This document shows positions 7,648 through 19,140 of a stretch of 20,365 nt of DNA, piece after piece. Source of the DNA: a virus; the IMG/VR virus record IMGVR_UViG_3300029319_000651, positions 1 to 20,365 of that record. One strand, written 5' to 3'. The position numbers were made by a program, and so were the translations under genes. The notes under the pieces are model-generated. The model was not told the origin of the DNA. It did no database searches and worked only from the letters and a program-made list of their open reading frames with translations. Position 1 is the first letter of the stretch, and each line of letters begins with the position of its first letter.

Positions 7648-9228
7648 ATGGCATTACTAAATCAAACTCAAAGAGAATATTATCAAGGCGAAGATTATGG
7701 TAGCTATCAATTTAGCTCTTTACGAGATATTATAAATCAATTTATGGTTGCTTATGTTGGTGAGGGTAAAATTATAAGCAAAGCAAGTAAAACAGACGTT
7801 AGTTTTCATGCTCAAAGAGCAATGCAAGAATTATCGTTTGATACGTTTAAATCTATAAAATCTCAAGAAATAGAATTACCACCTTCTTTAACAATGATAT
7901 TACCTCATGATTATGTTAACTATACTTGTTTAGCTTTTGTAGATAATGCTGGTATTAAACATAGATTATATCCAGTTAACAAAACTTCTAATCCATTTTC
8001 AATAGCACAGGAACCTGATGGTACTTATGAGTTTTCAGATGACGTAGAGTTGTTGTTAGGAAATAGTTTTGCAAGCGCTCAAGGTAGAATACATCCAAGA
8101 TGGAAAAAAACACATTTAAGCAACGTTCAAAGAAATGGAAACAGTTCAGCACCGTCTGGTTATTTAGGTTTTGGTGGTGGTTTTAATATAGAATCAGATG
8201 CTACTTTAGAAGCGTTAAAATTTACTCACGTTTCACAACCTATAAATCCTGTTAATAATCTAGATCATGATGGTAGAGTTTTGTCTTGCTGGCAAAAACT
8301 TGACGTGTCTAATATGAGTACATTAAGAATATCTGGTACTGTAGATGTTTTTAACAATACGTCTACTCAAGCTACTGCCGATGCTGTTAGTCATAGTCAA
8401 AACGTACCTGATGGTAGAGTTATAATAGGTATTCAAACAACACCTGGTGTTAATAATACTAAAACAAAAGGTACACCACAGCAAATAAATAATAATCCAA
8501 ATTTTATTAGTAAAAACACTATTGATCCAGATCTTGGTTTTATGGAATATACTTCAGACGGAACGCAACAATTAGATGTAGACGTTTCTAATCATAGTGT
8601 AGTTTATTTTATAATTAATAGTTATGTAGAGGTTAGTACATCTGAAACTCTTGCTGATGGTGTTATAGGAACAACTTTACCAACTCAACACACTTTTGTT
8701 AATACTATTTCAGAGGTTTCTGCTGTTAACGGTTTATCTACAGTAGATTTATTACCTAGAGATTTACAAACAAATGATTCTATAACTTGGGAAAGATATA
8801 AATCACACAAGCCAAATGATGATATGAATAGGTATGACGATGGTACTTATGATTTAGTTTCTGGCGAAAGATATGGTCTTGATCCTCAGTACGCTCAAAT
8901 AAACGGATCTTTTTATATTGATAATTTAAAAGGTTTAATAAACTTTAGTTCTAATGTAGGTGGTAAAACAGTTATATTAGATTATATAAGTGACGGTTTA
9001 GGTACAGAAGAAGAAATGCAAGTACATAAATTTGCACAAGAAGCGTTATACATGCATATAATGTATGCTATTTTATCTACAAGAGCTAATATACCAGAAT
9101 ATATAGTTAGAAGATATAAAAAAGAAAAGTTTGCTGCTACTAGAAAAGCAAAGCTAAGACTATCAAATATTAAATTAGAAGAAATAACACAAGTACTTAG
9201 AGGAAAATCTAAGTGGATAAAACACTAA
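7648..9228 (+). CDS. Tail tubular / connector ring protein with inserted beta-sandwich domain
   Basis: This 526-residue protein has two conserved-looking halves. Residues 15-120 contain SLRDIINQFMVAYVGEGKII, DVSFHAQRAMQELSFDT and LPPSLTMILPHDYVNYTCLA. Residues 369-526 contain YGLDPQYAQINGSFYID, VILDYISDGLG, and a helical basic end with IPEYIVRRYKKEKFAATRKA then VLRGKSKWIKH. I link this pattern to tail-tubular/gp4-like connector proteins of short-tailed Bacteroidota phages. Between the halves, residues about 175-368 are Gly/Asn/Thr/Ser-rich strands (VDVFNNTST, GRVIIGIQTTPGV, SVVYFIINSYVEVS) that look like an added jelly-roll domain. It would sit on the outside of the ring and could contact a partner or the host surface. 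The giant tail gene follows after 3 bases. The role is inferred from motifs and position. Confidence 0.75.
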   Translation: MALLNQTQREYYQGEDYGSYQFSSLRDIINQFMVAYVGEGKIISKASKTDVSFHAQRAMQELSFDTFKSIKSQEIELPPSLTMILPHDYVNYTCLAFVDNAGIKHRLYPVNKTSNPFSIAQEPDGTYEFSDDVELLLGNSFASAQGRIHPRWKKTHLSNVQRNGNSSAPSGYLGFGGGFNIESDATLEALKFTHVSQPINPVNNLDHDGRVLSCWQKLDVSNMSTLRISGTVDVFNNTSTQATADAVSHSQNVPDGRVIIGIQTTPGVNNTKTKGTPQQINNNPNFISKNTIDPDLGFMEYTSDGTQQLDVDVSNHSVVYFIINSYVEVSTSETLADGVIGTTLPTQHTFVNTISEVSAVNGLSTVDLLPRDLQTNDSITWERYKSHKPNDDMNRYDDGTYDLVSGERYGLDPQYAQINGSFYIDNLKGLINFSSNVGGKTVILDYISDGLGTEEEMQVHKFAQEALYMHIMYAILSTRANIPEYIVRRYKKEKFAATRKAKLRLSNIKLEEITQVLRGKSKWIKH

Positions 9229-9231
9229 TAT

Positions 9232-12200
9232 ATGCCGGAGATTAAAAACACTTTTACTCAAGGTAAGATGAATAAAGACCTTGATGAAAGACTTATACCT
9301 AATGGTCAGTATAGAGAAGCTCTTAATGTTAAGGTTTCTGTATCAGATGAATCTGATGTTGGTACAGTTCAGAATATATTAGGTAATGAGCGTTTAGATA
9401 GTATAATTCCAGCAGGTTTTAAATGTATAGGTAGTATATCTAATGAAAAAACAAATAAACTTTATTGGTTTGTTACAAAACCTAATTTAATAGATGCTAT
9501 AGTTCAATATGATTTAGAAAATAGTAATGTTGAGTTAGTTTTAGTAGACACAAAACAAGATACTTTAAAGTTTACAGAAAAGATAATAACTGGTATAAAT
9601 ATTATAGATAACTTATTATTTTTTACAGACGGTTATAATGAGCCTAAAAAAATAAACATAGACTCTTGTATAGCTGGAACAACAACTACAGATCTTAATT
9701 TAGCAACTCACACTGAGTTAATTGTTGATGGTGATAATAAAGGTGATATAAACGAAAGTCACATTACAGTTATACGTAAAAATCCTAAATCTCAACTTGA
9801 CGTAATAATAAACAAACCTACCGGGCAAACGTCAACTAAATTATTCGAAAAAATATTCCCAAGATTTTCTTACAGATATAAATACCAAGACGGTGAATAC
9901 TCTGCTTTTGGTCCTTTTACAGATGTTGTTTTTAATGCTCTGTATAACGAAGACTATAGTCAAGACGATGCTTATTCTTCTGTAGAGTCTTATAATACCG
10001 CTATGGTAAATAATATAAAGTCTGTAGAATTAAAAAATTTCGTAACAAGTCATACACCTAAAGACGTTGTTCAAATAGAAATACTTTATAAACAAGAAGG
10101 TAGCAATGTTGTTTTTTCTATAAAAAAAATAAACTATGATACTGATCCATCATCTGATTGGACTAACAACTCTTGTCTTATAGAATCAGAGAGTATATAT
10201 TCTGCAATACCTGAAAATCAAATATTAAGAGTTTTTGATGCTGTTCCTACTAAAGCATTAGCACAAGAAATAACAGGTAATAGATTAATTTATGGTAATT
10301 ATACACAAGGACACAGCTTGTTAAATCCTTTTGGTAATACTACTACAGCTGACTTTTTCAAAGCAGATTATGGTGTTAGAAATATAAAAAAATCTTTTAA
10401 CGATGGTGGTATACAGTCTGTAAAATCACAAAGAAAATATCAAGTTGGTTTTGTTTTAGGTGATAAGTATGGAAGAGAAACACCTGTGTTTACTTCTGAC
10501 GATGGTTTTGTAGAGATACCTTGGTATAATTATGAAAAATCTGATATTGGCTTATCTGCTAGTCAAACGTTACAAATAACAGCAAGATCTGGTTTAGGTA
10601 TAACTTCACCACAAGCAGCACCTCCTCATTGGGCAGAATATTATAAGTATTATATAAAAGAAACTTCTAGTGAGTACTATAATCTAATAATGGACAAGGC
10701 TTACATACCTTCAAGATTAAATGTTTTTGATAATGAAGAAGATCATGTTTGGATTACTTTTCCATCGTCTGATAGAAATAAAGTTTCAGAAGAAGATTAT
10801 TTAATACTAAAAAAATTAGTTGGTGGTAACGAAGAGCAAGTAAGTTTAGAAAATAAATTTAAAATATTAGCTATAGATAATGAAGCGCCTGATCAAATAA
10901 AATTTGATTATTTATCTTTAGGTTTAGCAACTCAAAACACAGCAGGTGTTACTAGTTTTTTAACTAACTCTACTAGTGGTTTAATGAGAGACGCTACGTA
11001 TAGAATAGATCAAGAAACAGATATGGTTTATGTCAGAAGAGACGCTTGGATTAATGATTGCGCTGGTGGTTCTTTAACAGATGATGGTGATAATGAAAAC
11101 ATGTACGTTAACAATATGTATATGTCTTTTGAAAACCGTGTTGACAATGTAGAAACTTCAGAAAAATATAAAGTAGTTTCTATACTTTTTGTTAACGATA
11201 ATTATCAAGTTAAACTTAATAGAAAAATAACACTAAAAGACGCTCAACTAGCTGATGTAAACGGTGTAGCAAATGATACGACTAACGGTTTAAAAGCTGA
11301 TTTAGTTTTAAAGTTTGAAAGAAAAGAACAAAAAGATTTAGATGAGTTTTCAGGTAAATTTTTTGTAAAAATAGTAGCTAGTAGAGCTGCTGTAAACAAT
11401 ATTGAATATAACGCACAACCAGATTTAACTTCTCAATTTATAGTTAGTATTAAAAAACCTATAAGGTGGTATGTTGAAAGTGCTGATGGTGGAAGTAATC
11501 CAACTACTGGTTTGATAAACGGTAGTTATCCAACACTTAGCACAGCTAATAAATTAGACGTTATAAACGGTGGTGCTACTTTAACAAATACAGAAGTTGC
11601 TTGGGCTTCAGTAATGACACAAAACTCAGGCTACGCTGGTTCTAATTATGACGGTGATTCAAGAACATTTTTTATAGATAACGCTTATTTTGTAGCTGGC
11701 CAGATAGATGACAATAACTATGCTAGACAGTCTGGGCAAACTTATAGAGGTTCAGGTGTACAGTATTATCCAGAGCCTGTTTGGGACGGAAGTGATCCTG
11801 CTAGAGGTTGGACAACTAATGCAGGATCATTTTATTATAACACATCTACTTCAACAGGATACGTTTTTGATACAAAACCTTTATATTATAATCTTCAAGT
11901 TGGAAGTACGGGTGAAATAGTTGTTAATAAAGATATTAATGGTCTAGAAGGTTATGTGCAAACTACAGGGCCAAGTCATACTGCTAGTGATCATGAAGGA
12001 TATAGAGTTTGGTTAAAAGGTAAAATACAAGATCGTTTTGATTTTGATTATACAGTATATAGTCAACAAGACGGTAAACACTATTTACACTTATCATTTT
12101 TAGGTCCTGGTGTTGATTTACATAGCGGCTTTGCACCTCTTGGTATAACAACAACCTCGCCTTTAGTAGGGCCTGGAAGTATTGCTGATAATTTACAAGG

Positions 12201-15200
12201 TATATGGGGTGGTGGTTATTTTTCTGAAAACGGAAAAACATTATTTATGGAAGGTAACTATGATGCTAATGGAGATGCTTTGTTTGATCCACCAGCACCT
12301 GGTGTTGGTCAAGGTTATGATAATTTTTATAAAGATCAACACGAAAATCAATGGAACCCAGCTTATCCTGAAAGTGAAGACACAGATGGTGCTATAAGAG
12401 ATTTTGTAAATAATTTAAAAAAGAATAGTAAGTTTAAATTTTCAAACGATACTAACGATACTGTAATAACAATAGTAAGTGATGTTCAAACAAAAAAATT
12501 ATACAACCATACCCCTTGGAGAGCTTATAAAGCTTGGGATGGTGTATCTACTAATAACAACGGTACAAACGTAGTTTCTGCTAATATAGTACTTGGTGGT
12601 AATAGTGTTGAAGAAGCTGCTGTTGCTTGGGTTCAAGATACTAGTGATCCCGTAAAGCTTACTACGTTAAAAAATAGAATAGAAAACTTTGGTAAAAGAA
12701 ATAATAGAAGAATATGTTATATATTTGAAATAGATCAAGATATAACTAGTTTGTTAGGTGATACTAATCTTCTTGATGCTAATGGAGACGGAAGCAGTCC
12801 TTTAGTAGATATAGAATTTTTATCAAAAGATCCAAATATATTAACTGGTAAACTTAGAGATGTAGCAGCTATATGGGAAACAGAACCAAAAATTGATGAA
12901 GGTTTAGATATATACTACGAAGCTAGCTCAGCATATCCTTTTGTAGTAAATGAAGATACTAACGAGCTTTTAGCACCTGTTGGTTCTAGAGTTGAAATAT
13001 TAAATTTAGAAGAAGCTAGAGTTGGTGAAGTAATTGTAGATGAAGATATATTTGTTCAAGAGTGGTTAACTGGCACTAAAGTTTCTTTAACTAGTGGCTT
13101 TAACGTAAGAGATGCTAGTGGATCTACTATTGATTACGATGGTAAACAAATTAGGTTTTATAAAGATGATGGAAGTTTTGTAACTTTAAGAATTAAACCT
13201 ACTCCAAATTTTCAAAGTAATACAGTTGCGATTTTTGATGTTGATCCTACTATAGATGCTAGCTTAGAACAAGGTTTAAGCTGGAATAATTGTTTTTCAT
13301 TTGGTAATGGTATAGAGTCTAATAGAATAAGAGATGATTTTAACGCGCCACAAATTACTAACGGTGTTAAAGCTTCTATAACGTTAGAACAAGATTATAA
13401 AGAAGAACATAGAAAAAGTGGTTTAATATTTTCTGGTATTTACAACTCAACATCAAGCGTAAATAATCTTAATCAATTTATACAGGCTGAAAAAATAACT
13501 AAAGATTTAAACCCTACATACGGTAGTATACAGAAATTATTTCAAAGAAGAATTAGTTTAGTTGCTTTCTGTGAAGATAGAGTTGTTAGTATAACTTCTA
13601 ATAAAGACTCTCTTTTTAACGCAGACGGTAATCCTCAGCTTATATCTTCAACAAACGTTTTAGGTGATGCAACACCTTTTGTTGGTGATTATGGTATAAG
13701 TAAAAACCCTGAATCATTTGCTAAAGAAAGTTATAGAGCTTATTTTACAGACAAACAAAGAGGTGCTGTTCTAAGATTATCAATGGATGGTTTGACGCCT
13801 ATATCTGAAGCTGGTATGGCTGACTTCTTTAGAGATAATTTAAAACTTACAGATCAATTAATAGGTAGTTATGATAATTATAATAAGTATTATAACTTAA
13901 CAATAAGTGATAGATTACCTACTCCTAATTTAATTTCAAACGGTACTATTACTGATGGTACTCAATCGGTGCTAGCCACAAACGCTAACCGTATATTAAA
14001 CGGTAGTGTTAACGGTACTACGCTTCAATTTCCAACTATAGATATGTCTGTAGATAATGTAACTGATAATTCTACTTTAGACAGTCAAGCTATTATAGCT
14101 AATTTTGCTGAAATACCACAATACAGTATAGTGCCAGAAACTTTTACAGTTATACCACCTACACAAAGTACTTTTTTAACTTTTAGTACCACTAGTTTTA
14201 ATTTAATTTCTGCTAGCTTTACAGATCCAACTCAAAATCCTTTCTATGGAACTGGAACTGGTAATCATGTACATAGAACATATCACATATATAGAAACTA
14301 TACTAGTAATTACGTAAGTAACGGTGTTCAACAAGGAAACCTTGGTAATTCTGTTAGTACTTTTCCAACGCCAGGTTATGGAGGTTTCGGCCCTTATAAC
14401 TATAATTCTAAAAGTGCTAATTGGTATACAGGGCTTAGTCCACAGTTTCCTACCCAAAACGTAGGAGCAAGTGAGGATATTTTTTGGAATCATACTTCTG
14501 ATTTATACAATAGTCAAACACCGCCAGGTAATGAAGCACCGTTTGGCGTAACTTCTTCTAATGATAATCCTTGGTTTAATACAGACGACGGAGATAATCA
14601 TGGTCTTGGCGCTTGTTTTGACAGTACAGACGTTGGTGGTCAAGCGATAATACTACCTGGTGTTCACATACCAGACGGAGGAACACCAAACACTTCAACA
14701 CTTACTCAAGCTGTTAAAGATAAATATCCTGCAGCTACGGATTTAACAATATTTAATGGTGAAGAAATTAAAATTACATTTTATTTTAGAAATGGTTATA
14801 ACGAAGCTTCTGGAAGTACAGACAATGATAGATCTATTTATCTAGAACTTATTGATGGTAGCTCAGGTACGTTTAATACTGACGGTGTTTACACGGGTTA
14901 TACAGCTTTAAGTGATAGTAATGTTTGGGACACAACAACTGGTAGTGGATTTACTGACACTAATTTCTCAACAACACACGGTAGTCCTGGTTCTAGTACT
15001 TATGAAGTTGGTTATGCAGATGGTTCAGCAAGTTATAATTTTCCTGTAATAAGCAATAACAACAATGTGTTTCATGAAATATTTTTTAAATTTACTGACG
15101 GTACAGAAGACGAAAGTATAGTTATTGATAATTTACAAGTGCTTCTTAGACCAAATAGTACTGATAATAATCATACTGATTTGTATGGTGCTATTTCTAG

Positions 15201-17493
15201 TGTAAGTATTACAAAAGTTCATAGAGTAACCGATGTTGATACTTTTACTTCAGGTTCTACAACTGCTAACGGTGATGGAATACCTTCGCAAACAATACCT
15301 GCTTTTGCAACTGTTAGGCATGGAGTTGATAATTGGGACGAAGCTTCTACTTATATTACTCCGCAAAGTATAGCTACTTATGGAAATACTTTTTGGCCTC
15401 CTGCAACTATTACTGAAACTGTAACTCACAATGGTAATGTTATTAACATAAACTACGAAGCGCCTCCCGGTACAGTTGCTGATGTTTCTGGTTATGGTTT
15501 AACTACTTTAGGCCCTACAGATAATGGAACTGTTGTTTACAACGATGGAACTGGTGGTGCTGGTATGTACGGTACTTATACTACACCTGTATATACGTCA
15601 AATAATTATGGTGGTACTTCAGATTATAATTTTGTATTTGGTCAAAACCCACCATCACCTAGTTATCATGGAACTTCATTAATTAATGACGAAATAAAAA
15701 CTAATATAAGTGGTAATAGTATAGTAGAACAAGTGCATTATGATTTTATAGAAGATAATTGGTATGTAATAGATTTATTATATACTGGCGGTGTTTTTAG
15801 TTCTGGTACACCTGCTATTGAATTAAAACTACCTGTTGATCAAGTAAACGGTGTACAAGCCGTGTTTACACCTCAACAAGTTGATGATTTTTATTCTACA
15901 ACAACAAACATTTACAGATGTTTATTTCAAGCTACAGCTGCAAATGGTTGGAATGCTTCAACTTCTGATTATATAAGAATAGAAACTACTGATGCAGAAA
16001 TTACTATTACAGACATATATGTAGCAGATATTACACAAAGCTATCAAGGTGGTACTGCGCCTAACTGGAATATAAATGGTATTACTCAACCTGTAAATTA
16101 CTTTAGTGTACCAGAAATTTATGTTGACAATACAGATGGGTTTGTGTTTACAGAAAATTCTACATCAGCACAAAACGTTAGACAATTATTACCTAATTTA
16201 CCACAAACTACTGACGGTTATATATTAGAGTTTGAAATAAAAAACAATGCGCTTCATACTCAAATCAATGGTAATAATTCTTATGGTGAATTTAAAGTTA
16301 CTGTTAGTAATGGTACTAGTAATTTTAGAGCTGAATTAGATGCTGGTGGTTCTAGTAACAATGGTATATGGACAATAGAAGCTAAGTTAGGTACTGTTGG
16401 AACTAATAATATATCTCAAAACGGTGTAGTAGTAGGTAGCACTATAGTAGCTGCACAGCCAGCGTTTAGTGGTATAGAGTTTACTCAATTACCAAATCCA
16501 AATAAAATAATGGTAGGTAGTGTTGATAATATTAGCTTAATAGATAAAACAAATTACTTTTTAAGCGGTGGATCAGTTGATAGCTTTGCAATAACAGGTT
16601 TCGATCCTCTTTTCAACGATTATATTGACTTTAACGTTGTACCTGGTAGTGTACCACCTAATGGACAAATTTCTTTTAACAATGCGCCTAGATTAGCACC
16701 TAGAGTTCAAATTGAACAACTTATAAGTGGTAATTTAAACACTGGTAACACTTACAAATTACAGTTTAATCATCTTTCTGTTAGTGGAGATATAAAAGGT
16801 TATTATTTTAATAACGCTGGAGAAGGTTTTAGATTTACAGTACCTGCAGGAGATGGTACTTATACTATGAATCATGAAATTGGTGATCATACTATTGACA
16901 ATGCTGCTAACGAGCTTAGCAATACTTTTGTTATATATGCAGATGACGATGTTGAGTCTAGCGGTATTATAGATAATATTTTATTACAACAAGTTTTTAC
17001 AGGTTTAGAAACAAAAACAGTTAGTTATAGTGAAAAAGTTAGAGGTTGGGTAAGTTTTAAATCATTTGTGTTAGAGCAAGGTACTAGTTTAGCAAATAAT
17101 TATTATACTTTTTATGAAGGTGGTTTATATTTGCATAATTCAGAAAATGAACCAAGAAATAATTTTTACGGTATACAGTATAATTCTTCTATAACAGCTG
17201 TTTTAAACGATTCACCATCTGTTGTCAAATATTTCAACACGTTAAACTACGAGGGTAGTCAATCAGAAGTAGTTGCAGGAAATATTAATTCTGGCTTTGA
17301 AGTTTATAACGAAAATGCTAAAGATGGTTGGCTTGTAGATTATATACAAACTGATAAACAAAGAGGTAGTGTAAAAGAGTTTATAGAGAAAGAAGGTAAG
17401 TGGTTTAATTATATAAAAGGAGACGATACAGATTTAGATACAGGTTCTTTAAGCTTTCAAGGTCTTGGTGTTGTTAAAAACGTAACAGTATAA
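9232..17493 (+). CDS. Giant tail stabilization / hub protein with jelly-roll array
   Basis: At 2,753 residues this is the largest gene in the window. Residues 12-52 (KMNKDLDERLIPNGQYREAL, then SDVGTVQNILGN) match the start of a tail stabilization-type family common in crAss-like and marine phages. Residues about 60-145 show propeller-like strands (NKLYWFV, LLFFTDGYNEPKKINID). Further core signatures are YRYKYQDGEYSAFGPFT (about 214-230), YQVGFVLGDKYGRETPVFT (403-421), AIWETEPKIDEGLDIYYEAS (1213-1232), and TDKQRGAVLRLSMDGLTPIS near 1506. The closing core runs from SEKVRGWVSFKSF (about 2600) to EKEGKWFNYIKG near the end. About 1,000 residues between these cores (1565-2590) are Thr/Asn/Gly-rich beta modules, several ending in an IDN-type strand. 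A Ca2+-loop-like DANGDGSSPLVD lies at 1182-1193. The probable role is the tail hub or muzzle, with host-binding modules. No enzyme motif is seen. Confidence 0.8.
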   Translation: MPEIKNTFTQGKMNKDLDERLIPNGQYREALNVKVSVSDESDVGTVQNILGNERLDSIIPAGFKCIGSISNEKTNKLYWFVTKPNLIDAIVQYDLENSNVELVLVDTKQDTLKFTEKIITGINIIDNLLFFTDGYNEPKKINIDSCIAGTTTTDLNLATHTELIVDGDNKGDINESHITVIRKNPKSQLDVIINKPTGQTSTKLFEKIFPRFSYRYKYQDGEYSAFGPFTDVVFNALYNEDYSQDDAYSSVESYNTAMVNNIKSVELKNFVTSHTPKDVVQIEILYKQEGSNVVFSIKKINYDTDPSSDWTNNSCLIESESIYSAIPENQILRVFDAVPTKALAQEITGNRLIYGNYTQGHSLLNPFGNTTTADFFKADYGVRNIKKSFNDGGIQSVKSQRKYQVGFVLGDKYGRETPVFTSDDGFVEIPWYNYEKSDIGLSASQTLQITARSGLGITSPQAAPPHWAEYYKYYIKETSSEYYNLIMDKAYIPSRLNVFDNEEDHVWITFPSSDRNKVSEEDYLILKKLVGGNEEQVSLENKFKILAIDNEAPDQIKFDYLSLGLATQNTAGVTSFLTNSTSGLMRDATYRIDQETDMVYVRRDAWINDCAGGSLTDDGDNENMYVNNMYMSFENRVDNVETSEKYKVVSILFVNDNYQVKLNRKITLKDAQLADVNGVANDTTNGLKADLVLKFERKEQKDLDEFSGKFFVKIVASRAAVNNIEYNAQPDLTSQFIVSIKKPIRWYVESADGGSNPTTGLINGSYPTLSTANKLDVINGGATLTNTEVAWASVMTQNSGYAGSNYDGDSRTFFIDNAYFVAGQIDDNNYARQSGQTYRGSGVQYYPEPVWDGSDPARGWTTNAGSFYYNTSTSTGYVFDTKPLYYNLQVGSTGEIVVNKDINGLEGYVQTTGPSHTASDHEGYRVWLKGKIQDRFDFDYTVYSQQDGKHYLHLSFLGPGVDLHSGFAPLGITTTSPLVGPGSIADNLQGIWGGGYFSENGKTLFMEGNYDANGDALFDPPAPGVGQGYDNFYKDQHENQWNPAYPESEDTDGAIRDFVNNLKKNSKFKFSNDTNDTVITIVSDVQTKKLYNHTPWRAYKAWDGVSTNNNGTNVVSANIVLGGNSVEEAAVAWVQDTSDPVKLTTLKNRIENFGKRNNRRICYIFEIDQDITSLLGDTNLLDANGDGSSPLVDIEFLSKDPNILTGKLRDVAAIWETEPKIDEGLDIYYEASSAYPFVVNEDTNELLAPVGSRVEILNLEEARVGEVIVDEDIFVQEWLTGTKVSLTSGFNVRDASGSTIDYDGKQIRFYKDDGSFVTLRIKPTPNFQSNTVAIFDVDPTIDASLEQGLSWNNCFSFGNGIESNRIRDDFNAPQITNGVKASITLEQDYKEEHRKSGLIFSGIYNSTSSVNNLNQFIQAEKITKDLNPTYGSIQKLFQRRISLVAFCEDRVVSITSNKDSLFNADGNPQLISSTNVLGDATPFVGDYGISKNPESFAKESYRAYFTDKQRGAVLRLSMDGLTPISEAGMADFFRDNLKLTDQLIGSYDNYNKYYNLTISDRLPTPNLISNGTITDGTQSVLATNANRILNGSVNGTTLQFPTIDMSVDNVTDNSTLDSQAIIANFAEIPQYSIVPETFTVIPPTQSTFLTFSTTSFNLISASFTDPTQNPFYGTGTGNHVHRTYHIYRNYTSNYVSNGVQQGNLGNSVSTFPTPGYGGFGPYNYNSKSANWYTGLSPQFPTQNVGASEDIFWNHTSDLYNSQTPPGNEAPFGVTSSNDNPWFNTDDGDNHGLGACFDSTDVGGQAIILPGVHIPDGGTPNTSTLTQAVKDKYPAATDLTIFNGEEIKITFYFRNGYNEASGSTDNDRSIYLELIDGSSGTFNTDGVYTGYTALSDSNVWDTTTGSGFTDTNFSTTHGSPGSSTYEVGYADGSASYNFPVISNNNNVFHEIFFKFTDGTEDESIVIDNLQVLLRPNSTDNNHTDLYGAISSVSITKVHRVTDVDTFTSGSTTANGDGIPSQTIPAFATVRHGVDNWDEASTYITPQSIATYGNTFWPPATITETVTHNGNVININYEAPPGTVADVSGYGLTTLGPTDNGTVVYNDGTGGAGMYGTYTTPVYTSNNYGGTSDYNFVFGQNPPSPSYHGTSLINDEIKTNISGNSIVEQVHYDFIEDNWYVIDLLYTGGVFSSGTPAIELKLPVDQVNGVQAVFTPQQVDDFYSTTTNIYRCLFQATAANGWNASTSDYIRIETTDAEITITDIYVADITQSYQGGTAPNWNINGITQPVNYFSVPEIYVDNTDGFVFTENSTSAQNVRQLLPNLPQTTDGYILEFEIKNNALHTQINGNNSYGEFKVTVSNGTSNFRAELDAGGSSNNGIWTIEAKLGTVGTNNISQNGVVVGSTIVAAQPAFSGIEFTQLPNPNKIMVGSVDNISLIDKTNYFLSGGSVDSFAITGFDPLFNDYIDFNVVPGSVPPNGQISFNNAPRLAPRVQIEQLISGNLNTGNTYKLQFNHLSVSGDIKGYYFNNAGEGFRFTVPAGDGTYTMNHEIGDHTIDNAANELSNTFVIYADDDVESSGIIDNILLQQVFTGLETKTVSYSEKVRGWVSFKSFVLEQGTSLANNYYTFYEGGLYLHNSENEPRNNFYGIQYNSSITAVLNDSPSVVKYFNTLNYEGSQSEVVAGNINSGFEVYNENAKDGWLVDYIQTDKQRGSVKEFIEKEGKWFNYIKGDDTDLDTGSLSFQGLGVVKNVTV

Positions 17494-17495
17494 AT

Positions 17496-18803
17496 ATGGA
17501 AAAAATAATTAATTCAGTTCAAATAAATCAAAAAGATTTATCAACTTTATCAGAAGTTAGAAACTTAAAAGTTAGCGGTGATGTAGGATCTGTTTTTAAT
17601 TTAAATGTTATTAAAGTAAACGGTACAAACAAAGAAAGCTATTATGATTTTAATTCAAAAACTTTTACAGATGAATTTACTTCAAAAAATAATTTAAACG
17701 TTAGTTTAAACACGCTAAGTACTATAATACCTATAAAATTTGCTGCTGATACTAACGGTGAAACTTATAAAATTTTAGTTTTAGCTTCAGAAGTTGATAA
17801 TACTAGTTTTTCAAATGGCTCGCGTGTAAATGTAAAAGAAATAACCCAAGTAGGAACTACAACAGTGTCTATTGAAGTTGATAATGGTAAAAATAAAGTA
17901 GCTAGTAATGCTAATAAATATACCGCTGATCCACCTGCTTCTGCAGTAACATCTACAGGATCTACAACAAGCACTAGTTCTGTAAACGCGCCAGTTACTT
18001 TTGTTTTAACAAACGCAAATAACGATACACATGGTCTTGGCTTACGTTTACCTACAGATATTCCAAGTGGTAGTGTTACGCCTGCTGGTTATTTAACGGC
18101 TGCACAAACAGTTTTTTCAATACCTGACACGTATTTTTATTCTGCTATAGTGCGAAATGCTTCAGGTTCTACGAGTAGTTCAACTACAGTAACACTTACT
18201 AGTGTTGAAAATTTAGCTATTGGTATGCAAGTTGGTTATTATGGTAGCAGTGTTCTTGCTTCTTATCCAACAATTACAGCAATAAACGGTAACGTAGTAA
18301 CTCTTTCATCTGCTTTGTCAATTAGTGATGGTGATGGTGTACAGTTTAGAGCTTATGGTCCACAGTTAATTAGAACTTGTTTTGGATATACAGTAGAATT
18401 TAAAAACTTTATAGCTACTGGTGATAATTTATTTACAACTGTTAGAACAACTACAGAATTACCAGCTTCTTCTGGTTCGGTAACTATACCAGTTAACGGT
18501 ACTAGAGGTATTAGCGTTGGTGCTAGATTTTTTGGTTTAAATGTAAACGAAAATAGCAATAACAACGTAATACAGATTGTTAGTTCTTCAGAAGACGCAG
18601 GAAGTATAACTATAGAAGATTTTGCAGGTAACGTAGATGATATTGTAGCGTTAAACGTTACGGCTGGTTCAGAGTTACTTATAAGTGGTAGTAATAGAGT
18701 TGTAACAGTAACAGGTACTGTTGTTATAAAAAGTTACCCTGAATCAGATTTTAAAGTAAAATTAGATTTAAACAAGTTTATCACTCACGGAAGCGCATCT
18801 TAA
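17496..18803 (+). CDS. Tail-associated beta-rich protein of unknown function
   Basis: I do not recognise this 435-residue protein. It is almost all Val/Thr/Ser/Asn-rich beta structure, with few charged helices and no membrane segment. Residues 1-140 look like a beta domain. A Thr/Ser linker (about 143-165, with STGSTTSTSSV) follows, then further beta domains. Two stretches share a layout: VTLTSVENLAIGMQV ending in VVTLSSALSISDGDGVQF (about 229-288), and VTIPVNGTRGISVGARFFG ending in VTAGSELLIS (about 326-397). This strand-IGMxV-strand pattern occurs in phage tail and fibre proteins as I recall them. It starts 2 bases after the giant gene's stop, so expression is tightly coupled. A minor tail, fibre-anchor or tail-tip protein is the best guess. 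Confidence 0.7.
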   Translation: MEKIINSVQINQKDLSTLSEVRNLKVSGDVGSVFNLNVIKVNGTNKESYYDFNSKTFTDEFTSKNNLNVSLNTLSTIIPIKFAADTNGETYKILVLASEVDNTSFSNGSRVNVKEITQVGTTTVSIEVDNGKNKVASNANKYTADPPASAVTSTGSTTSTSSVNAPVTFVLTNANNDTHGLGLRLPTDIPSGSVTPAGYLTAAQTVFSIPDTYFYSAIVRNASGSTSSSTTVTLTSVENLAIGMQVGYYGSSVLASYPTITAINGNVVTLSSALSISDGDGVQFRAYGPQLIRTCFGYTVEFKNFIATGDNLFTTVRTTTELPASSGSVTIPVNGTRGISVGARFFGLNVNENSNNNVIQIVSSSEDAGSITIEDFAGNVDDIVALNVTAGSELLISGSNRVVTVTGTVVIKSYPESDFKVKLDLNKFITHGSAS

Positions 18804-18813
18804 AAAATAAATT

Positions 18814-19140
18814 ATGACAATAGAGTTTGAAAAAGAAATAGAAAATATATCGTTGCAAATTGGCGATGTAGCTTATGTAGTTACACCAACTACTAATGGT
18901 TACACTAATACACCTTCAAAAATAGGTGAAATTACAGCTATAAACAAATTTTCAATTGAAGTAACTAACACTTCAAGTACGCCAGTAGCTACTGATGACT
19001 TTATTATGTTTTCTAAAAACAATGTTGTTAACAATAGTAGTTTATTAGGTTATTATGCTGAAGTAAAGTTGTCAAATGATTCTACTGAAAAAGCAGAATT
19101 ATTTGCTCTAGGATCTGAAGTAGTGCAAAGTAGTAAATAA
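18814..19140 (+). CDS. Small conserved phage structural protein of unknown function
   Basis: This 108-residue, beta-rich protein has a characteristic C-terminal half: DFIMFSKNNVVNNSSLLGYY and AEVKLSNDSTEKAELFALGS, ending in EVVQSSK. I have seen this SSLLGYYAE and KAELFA pattern in structural regions of marine phages, without an assigned function. The N-terminal half (SLQIGDVAYVV, then KIGEITAINKFSIEV) reads like a small barrel with a Gly-Asp turn. There is no signal peptide or membrane segment. It lies 10 bases after the beta-rich tail gene and 27 before the probable ejection protein. A small tail or virion component is likely. The conserved-looking sequence and position make it a real gene despite its size. 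Confidence 0.75.
   Translation: MTIEFEKEIENISLQIGDVAYVVTPTTNGYTNTPSKIGEITAINKFSIEVTNTSSTPVATDDFIMFSKNNVVNNSSLLGYYAEVKLSNDSTEKAELFALGSEVVQSSK

Follow-up and report, generated by a model that had tools for sequence, protein, structure and literature searches.

Analysis of a 20,365-nucleotide stretch of viral DNA (IMG/VR uncultured virus record IMGVR_UViG_3300029319_000651, 20,676 bases long, positions 1 to 20,365; hereafter the window) identified a giant tail protein of the muzzle family whose conserved core is split, at a β-hairpin of the propeller, by an insert of about 1,040 residues. We think it probable that the muzzle propeller bearing this insert displays a projecting β-sandwich accessory adhesin, which would most likely bind a receptor or polysaccharide. 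In crass-like phages, which count among the most abundant phage groups, the muzzle is the hexamer that plugs the end of the tail and serves as the gate facing the cell.

A muzzle-family protein with a divided core

The protein is encoded by a single uninterrupted reading frame, which was divided as follows:

9232–17493, + strand: muzzle-family tail protein, 2,753 aa, one open reading frame (phrog_14478, PF25729, tblastn)
9232–13905, + strand: muzzle core before the insert, residues 1–1558, ending in ~230 aa of propeller strands (blastp matches to phi38:1, elemo, phi13:2, Manatee and Panino proteins; profile to gp44 1054–1285)
13906–17016, + strand: insert, residues 1559–2595 (1,037 aa), inside a β-hairpin that is 2–49 aa long in most relatives (profile loop measurement, identity bins, relatives' loops)
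17017–17490, + strand: muzzle core after the insert, residues 2596–2753, completing the split hairpin (crAss_MUZ_C at 2641–2730)

The whole frame matched phrog_14478 (virion structural protein; E 2e-130), and residues 2641–2730 matched the crAss_MUZ_C domain PF25729 (E 2e-10; 41.2 bits against a curated cut-off of 27), which was also found in 18 of 18 insert-bearing sequences. With the 2,753-aa protein as query, tblastn matched gp97 of Cellulophaga phage phi38:1 and proteins of other flavophages. Its annotated relatives, each less than 60% identical, are structural proteins from phages of Cellulophaga, Flavobacterium, Maribacter and Tenacibaculum, and the nearest isolates bear other family names (Pervagoviridae, Pachyviridae). 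The genes around it encode virion proteins of the same phage type, among them a portal and a likely major capsid protein.

When a family profile of the C-terminal core was run against gp44, the muzzle protein of ΦcrAss001, it matched residues 1054–1285 (48.4 bits, E 2.9e-17 for a single target sequence), while the N-terminal part gave a weak profile match (10.3 bits, gp44 29–161). This mapping was obtained only with the broad family profile; gp44 was not recovered by single-sequence or thin-profile searches of PDB sequences. Judged by these profile and domain matches, the protein is a homologue of gp44, with which it shares the propeller half, the MUZ_C domain and the order of a ring-type protein followed by the muzzle. 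The original prediction had noted core signatures of one phage tail family on both sides of the insert, and that family can now be named as the crassvirus muzzle (phrog_14478, PF25729 and the gp44 profile). Phi38:1 gp97 corresponds to the same protein from its N-terminus to MUZ_C, with matched segments 30–36% identical, but totals only 1,324 aa.

The insert occupies a propeller hairpin that is short in most relatives

The best boundaries of the insert are residues 1559–2595 (window 13906–17016), compared with 13924–17005 as first proposed. The signatures lie at residues 1510 (RGAVLRLSMDG), 1553–1560 (YYNLTISD), 2600 (SEKVRGWVSFKSF) and 2673 (YEGSQSEV). Between them the composition is raised in Thr (12.0 versus 7.1%), Asn (10.2 versus 8.5%) and Gly (9.6 versus 7.5%) and lowered in Lys (1.5 versus 6.0%) and Arg (1.5 versus 3.1%); of the four residues in which this stretch had been called rich, only Ser was scarcely raised (8.7 versus 8.1%).

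Identity to the five nearest relatives, in 50-aa bins, was 76–88% at 1501–1550, mostly 20–50% at 1551–2600 and 54–76% at 2601–2750, and the homology edges of the insert are sharp. The blastp alignment to phi38:1 gp97 likewise halts at residue 1554 and resumes at 2596, positions that are 9 residues apart on the phi38:1 side (1070 to 1079). As measured by profile from ...YYNLTI to TVSYSEKVRGW, the loop comprises 4 aa in phi38:1, 4 in Panino and 11 in the elemo phages, against 1,037 in the window. That a large insertion splits a conserved structural core is therefore upheld by the fall in identity at both edges and by the four residues with which phi38:1 joins the same strands, and we hold the insertion and its site with high confidence.

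Homologues in which a short loop joins the two core halves were found in abundance: a loop of <60 aa connects the same two strands in phi38:1 and in 108 of 148 sampled relatives. A first IMG/VR set was ranked by full-length match, which favours insert-bearing forms; its loops were either 2–49 aa or mostly 930–1,442 aa, with a few intermediates. In a second set, found with the core sequence only and biased in the opposite direction, 76 of 80 loops were <60 aa, and the remaining four (264–669 aa) belonged to broken genes. Because of the loop lengths in both sets, the short loop is taken as the common and probably ancestral state.

The insertion site aligns to a 3-residue turn of gp44 (K1198–H1200), where the window has 1,037 aa. 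In the ΦcrAss001 muzzle, IG2 and its crass insertions occupy 318–1021, the gate lies in blade 4, and length variation was ascribed to insertions in the crass and IG2 regions only (PMC10172136). On this alignment the insertion site is C-terminal to the IG2 and crass domains, within the β-propeller, and the hairpin falls outside the regions of length variation reported in that structure paper (PMC10172136). An AlphaFold model of a short-loop core (L013) reached a pLDDT of 41, with ~55–60 for the hairpin at the junction, and blade number and direction were therefore counted from the sequence. Counting four-strand blades in this way places the site probably in blade 6, between strands B and C. The insert may be directed toward the cell.

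The insert is composed of predicted β-sandwich modules

An alignment of the insert over 17 relatives resolves four parts:

13915–15249, + strand: M1, residues ~1562–2006, beginning NLISN, with a β domain at 1824–2003 at pLDDT mostly 50–84 (alignment, AlphaFold)
15247–16035, + strand: M2, residues ~2006–2268 (alignment, AlphaFold)
16015–16563, + strand: M3, residues ~2262–2444, jelly-roll-like, terminating DNISL (homologous to M4 by hhalign)
16543–17016, + strand: M4, residues ~2438–2595, jelly-roll-like, terminating DNILL (alignment, AlphaFold)

M3 and M4 are tandem homologues (hhalign probability 96.3, E 1.5e-9, 139 aligned columns), whereas no homology of this type was detected for M1 and M2; M4 is present in the inserts of most long-loop loci. 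AlphaFold, run with 18 sequences, gave an all-β model of the insert with a mean pLDDT of 52 and better stretches (mostly 60–85) around 1824–2003, 2274–2333 and 2414–2583, and, as had been anticipated, several separate β domains were predicted.

Foldseek searches with parts of the insert matched a CBM22 tandem (E 4e-4, target TM 0.28), accessory domains of GH101 and other jelly-rolls, with E-values down to ~1e-6; these matches are accessory domains of glycan-active and other proteins. Matches among viral models were phage proteins named carbohydrate-binding or 'CenC-like'. TM-scores for the whole insert model were low (~0.1 on the query, ≤0.28 on a PDB target) because the domain arrangement in the model is uncertain. 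Pfam searches over 18 insert sequences gave no carbohydrate-binding or CBM family above cut-off, the best being GalBD_like (E 0.012) in 1 of the 18. With moderate confidence, the modules are predicted to be of jelly-roll type and to resemble carbohydrate-binding folds locally. The likeness to carbohydrate-binding jelly-rolls such as CBM22 lies in the local fold, with tandem NLxxN starts and DNIxL ends; the modules differ in standing outside the Pfam CBM families, and their glycan binding is putative.

The muzzle gene is broken at the same hairpin in other lineages

The reading frame is interrupted between the same two strands in phi13:2, ctfjg026, L065, L066, L093, L140/L141 and L167. In the first four, which were read in detail, protein 1 stops after extra residues and protein 2 begins with, or shortly ahead of, the propeller strand that follows (MGKNDWVLTFSEKNKGW in L065, MAITITYKESAKGW in L066, for instance). 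A 148-row tree, a fast tree with some long branches, required at least five changes for broken genes, four of them forced by well-supported branches. These comparisons indicate that the gene was broken at the hairpin at least four times, in lineages other than the insert-bearing clade.

Cellulophaga phage phi13:2 (gp120/gp121) and the uncultured ctfjg026 (Manatee Spring) resemble the window in having several hundred added residues at this hairpin, but their gene stops once the insert is complete and starts anew with the following strand, so that the propeller would comprise two chains. The phi13:2 insert, unlike that of the window, contains bacterial Ig/cadherin-like domains (Big_9, E 4e-21), so that unrelated adhesin-type domains share one site. 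In ctfjg026 (L005), by contrast with the window, a separate 183-aa open reading frame lies in the gap (12665–13216); it is annotated 'putative glycosidase', and no Pfam family was found in it.

Since the hairpin accepts both long inserts and chain breaks, we infer that it is a surface site and dispensable for the folding of the chain in one piece. Both would be tolerated because the two flanking strands keep pairing as a hairpin, maintaining the propeller fold, and the site could then be lengthened, emptied or cut with the core intact. With a short loop here in most relatives and a gene broken in two in a few, the hairpin stands out as a natural site for adding new parts to the tail tip. Tentatively, and with more doubt than assurance, the muzzle-propeller hairpin may be a general evolutionary socket that is lengthened with unrelated adhesin domains, emptied, or cut into a two-protein blade. 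If so, it would give crass-like phages a modular tail tip and, in some lineages, a split two-chain gatekeeper.

Divergence of the insert and its proposed role

In the proposed mechanism, the β-sandwich modules, which include at least two copies of one jelly-roll type in tandem, would project from the propeller as the accessory adhesin and most likely bind a surface polysaccharide or other receptor of a flavobacterial-type host, bringing the muzzle gate to the cell or membrane before it opens. Surface display on the tail and involvement in host recognition are plausible; the function of the insert, as adhesin or in glycan binding, is held with lower confidence than the insertion or the jelly-roll reading.

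The insert diverges much faster than the core. Compared with L007, the nearest relative, identity is 67% and 63% in the core on either side of the insert and 34% within it; for pairs whose core flanks are 75–95% identical, mean identity is 73.5% at the N-terminus and 39.7% in the insert. A DNA-pattern scan for the insert alone gave no matches and, because it requires exact 8-residue stretches, this is read as divergence and not absence. In a 74-row tree, the 31 insert-bearing rows formed one group with the short-loop rows L013 and L043 nested inside, consistent with at least two whole losses of the insert, regains being less likely. Outside this main clade, L047 has a 930-aa insert with the same NLILNPGFEE-type start, apparently a separate gain.

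These observations bear on whether the insert serves chiefly as a structural spacer or brace, its modules stiffening or widening the tail tip or binding the tail-fibre hub without receptor specificity. The similar length (936–1,442 aa) and module order of many insert-bearing relatives would suit such a role, as would an insert without an accepted carbohydrate-binding family. We nevertheless consider it unlikely, given that the insert changes far faster than any core part, was wholly lost in L013 and L043 and has its place taken in phi13:2 by unrelated adhesin-type domains.

The original prediction viewed the insert as a cassette swapped between phages by recombination to set host range. Patchy presence and absence (at least 11 changes of insert state over the 148 tips) and the agreement of insert-based and core-based nearest neighbours in only 12 of 28 cases could be so explained. 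However, no local insert match exceeded the flanking-core identity in any pair with core identity <95%, insert and core distances correlate (Mantel r 0.38, p 0.0005), and module order is preserved across the insert-bearing clade; the disagreement between neighbours is expected because insert identities are saturated near 30%. Exchange of the insert is thus not supported by these comparisons, and we judge it improbable; the data fit an old acquisition followed by rapid divergence, with whole loss on occasion and separate gains. That the 1,037 residues were an original part of the core fold, deleted in short-loop relatives, is scarcely credible: the insert does occur nearly throughout one sampled clade, but the short loop is found in distant relatives (phi38:1, the elemo phages and the 76 of 80 loci from the core-only search), gp44 has its 3-residue turn, and intact short-loop cores lie within the insert-bearing clade.

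The existence of natural relatives with a loop, a long insert or a broken gene at the same residues makes it possible to test directly, in cultured Cellulophaga and Flavobacterium phages, what the insert does and whether the propeller chain must be continuous.

The muzzle C-terminus and adjacent genes

Two downstream open reading frames complete the locus:

17496–18803, + strand: 435-aa open reading frame separating the muzzle from its detached C-terminal domain (at least 27 related loci have a homologue at this position)
18814–19140, + strand: 108-aa open reading frame, the muzzle C-terminal domain as a separate gene (E 2.3e-19 with an HMM that left out the window sequence)

The final ~100 aa of the muzzle, which are fused in phi38:1, the elemo phages and phi13:2, are absent from the 2,753-aa protein and were located in the 108-aa frame; in this the window also differs from gp44, its last ~100 aa (as defined from phi38:1) being a separate gene. 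An assembly error was rejected as the cause, since dozens of contigs share the arrangement: nearly every insert-bearing locus has a separate C-terminal frame, mostly 1.2–1.8 kb downstream of the conserved C-part, and the layout with the 435-aa frame in between is repeated in nearly all related IMG/VR loci. For that intervening frame, Pfam gave only one sub-threshold match (Tail_tube, 17.6 bits versus a cut-off of 23).

In short-loop relatives (L078, L082, L074, L063 and others) the stretch that runs from the last propeller strands to the end of the muzzle is often 290–1,480 aa, and much of it is a C-terminal extension with repeated GC.D..A.NY...DDGSC motifs, found in many of these relatives and making this a second place of muzzle extension. 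Presence of the hairpin insert appears to trade off against a long C-terminal extension (Fisher p 7e-9); a functional trade-off is not claimed, as the pattern largely follows the tree.

Upstream of the muzzle, a 526-aa open reading frame (window 7648–9228) matches phrog_13977 (273 aa) in two separated stretches and, compared with phi38:1 gp96 (283 aa), seems to contain an insertion of its own of ~250 aa.
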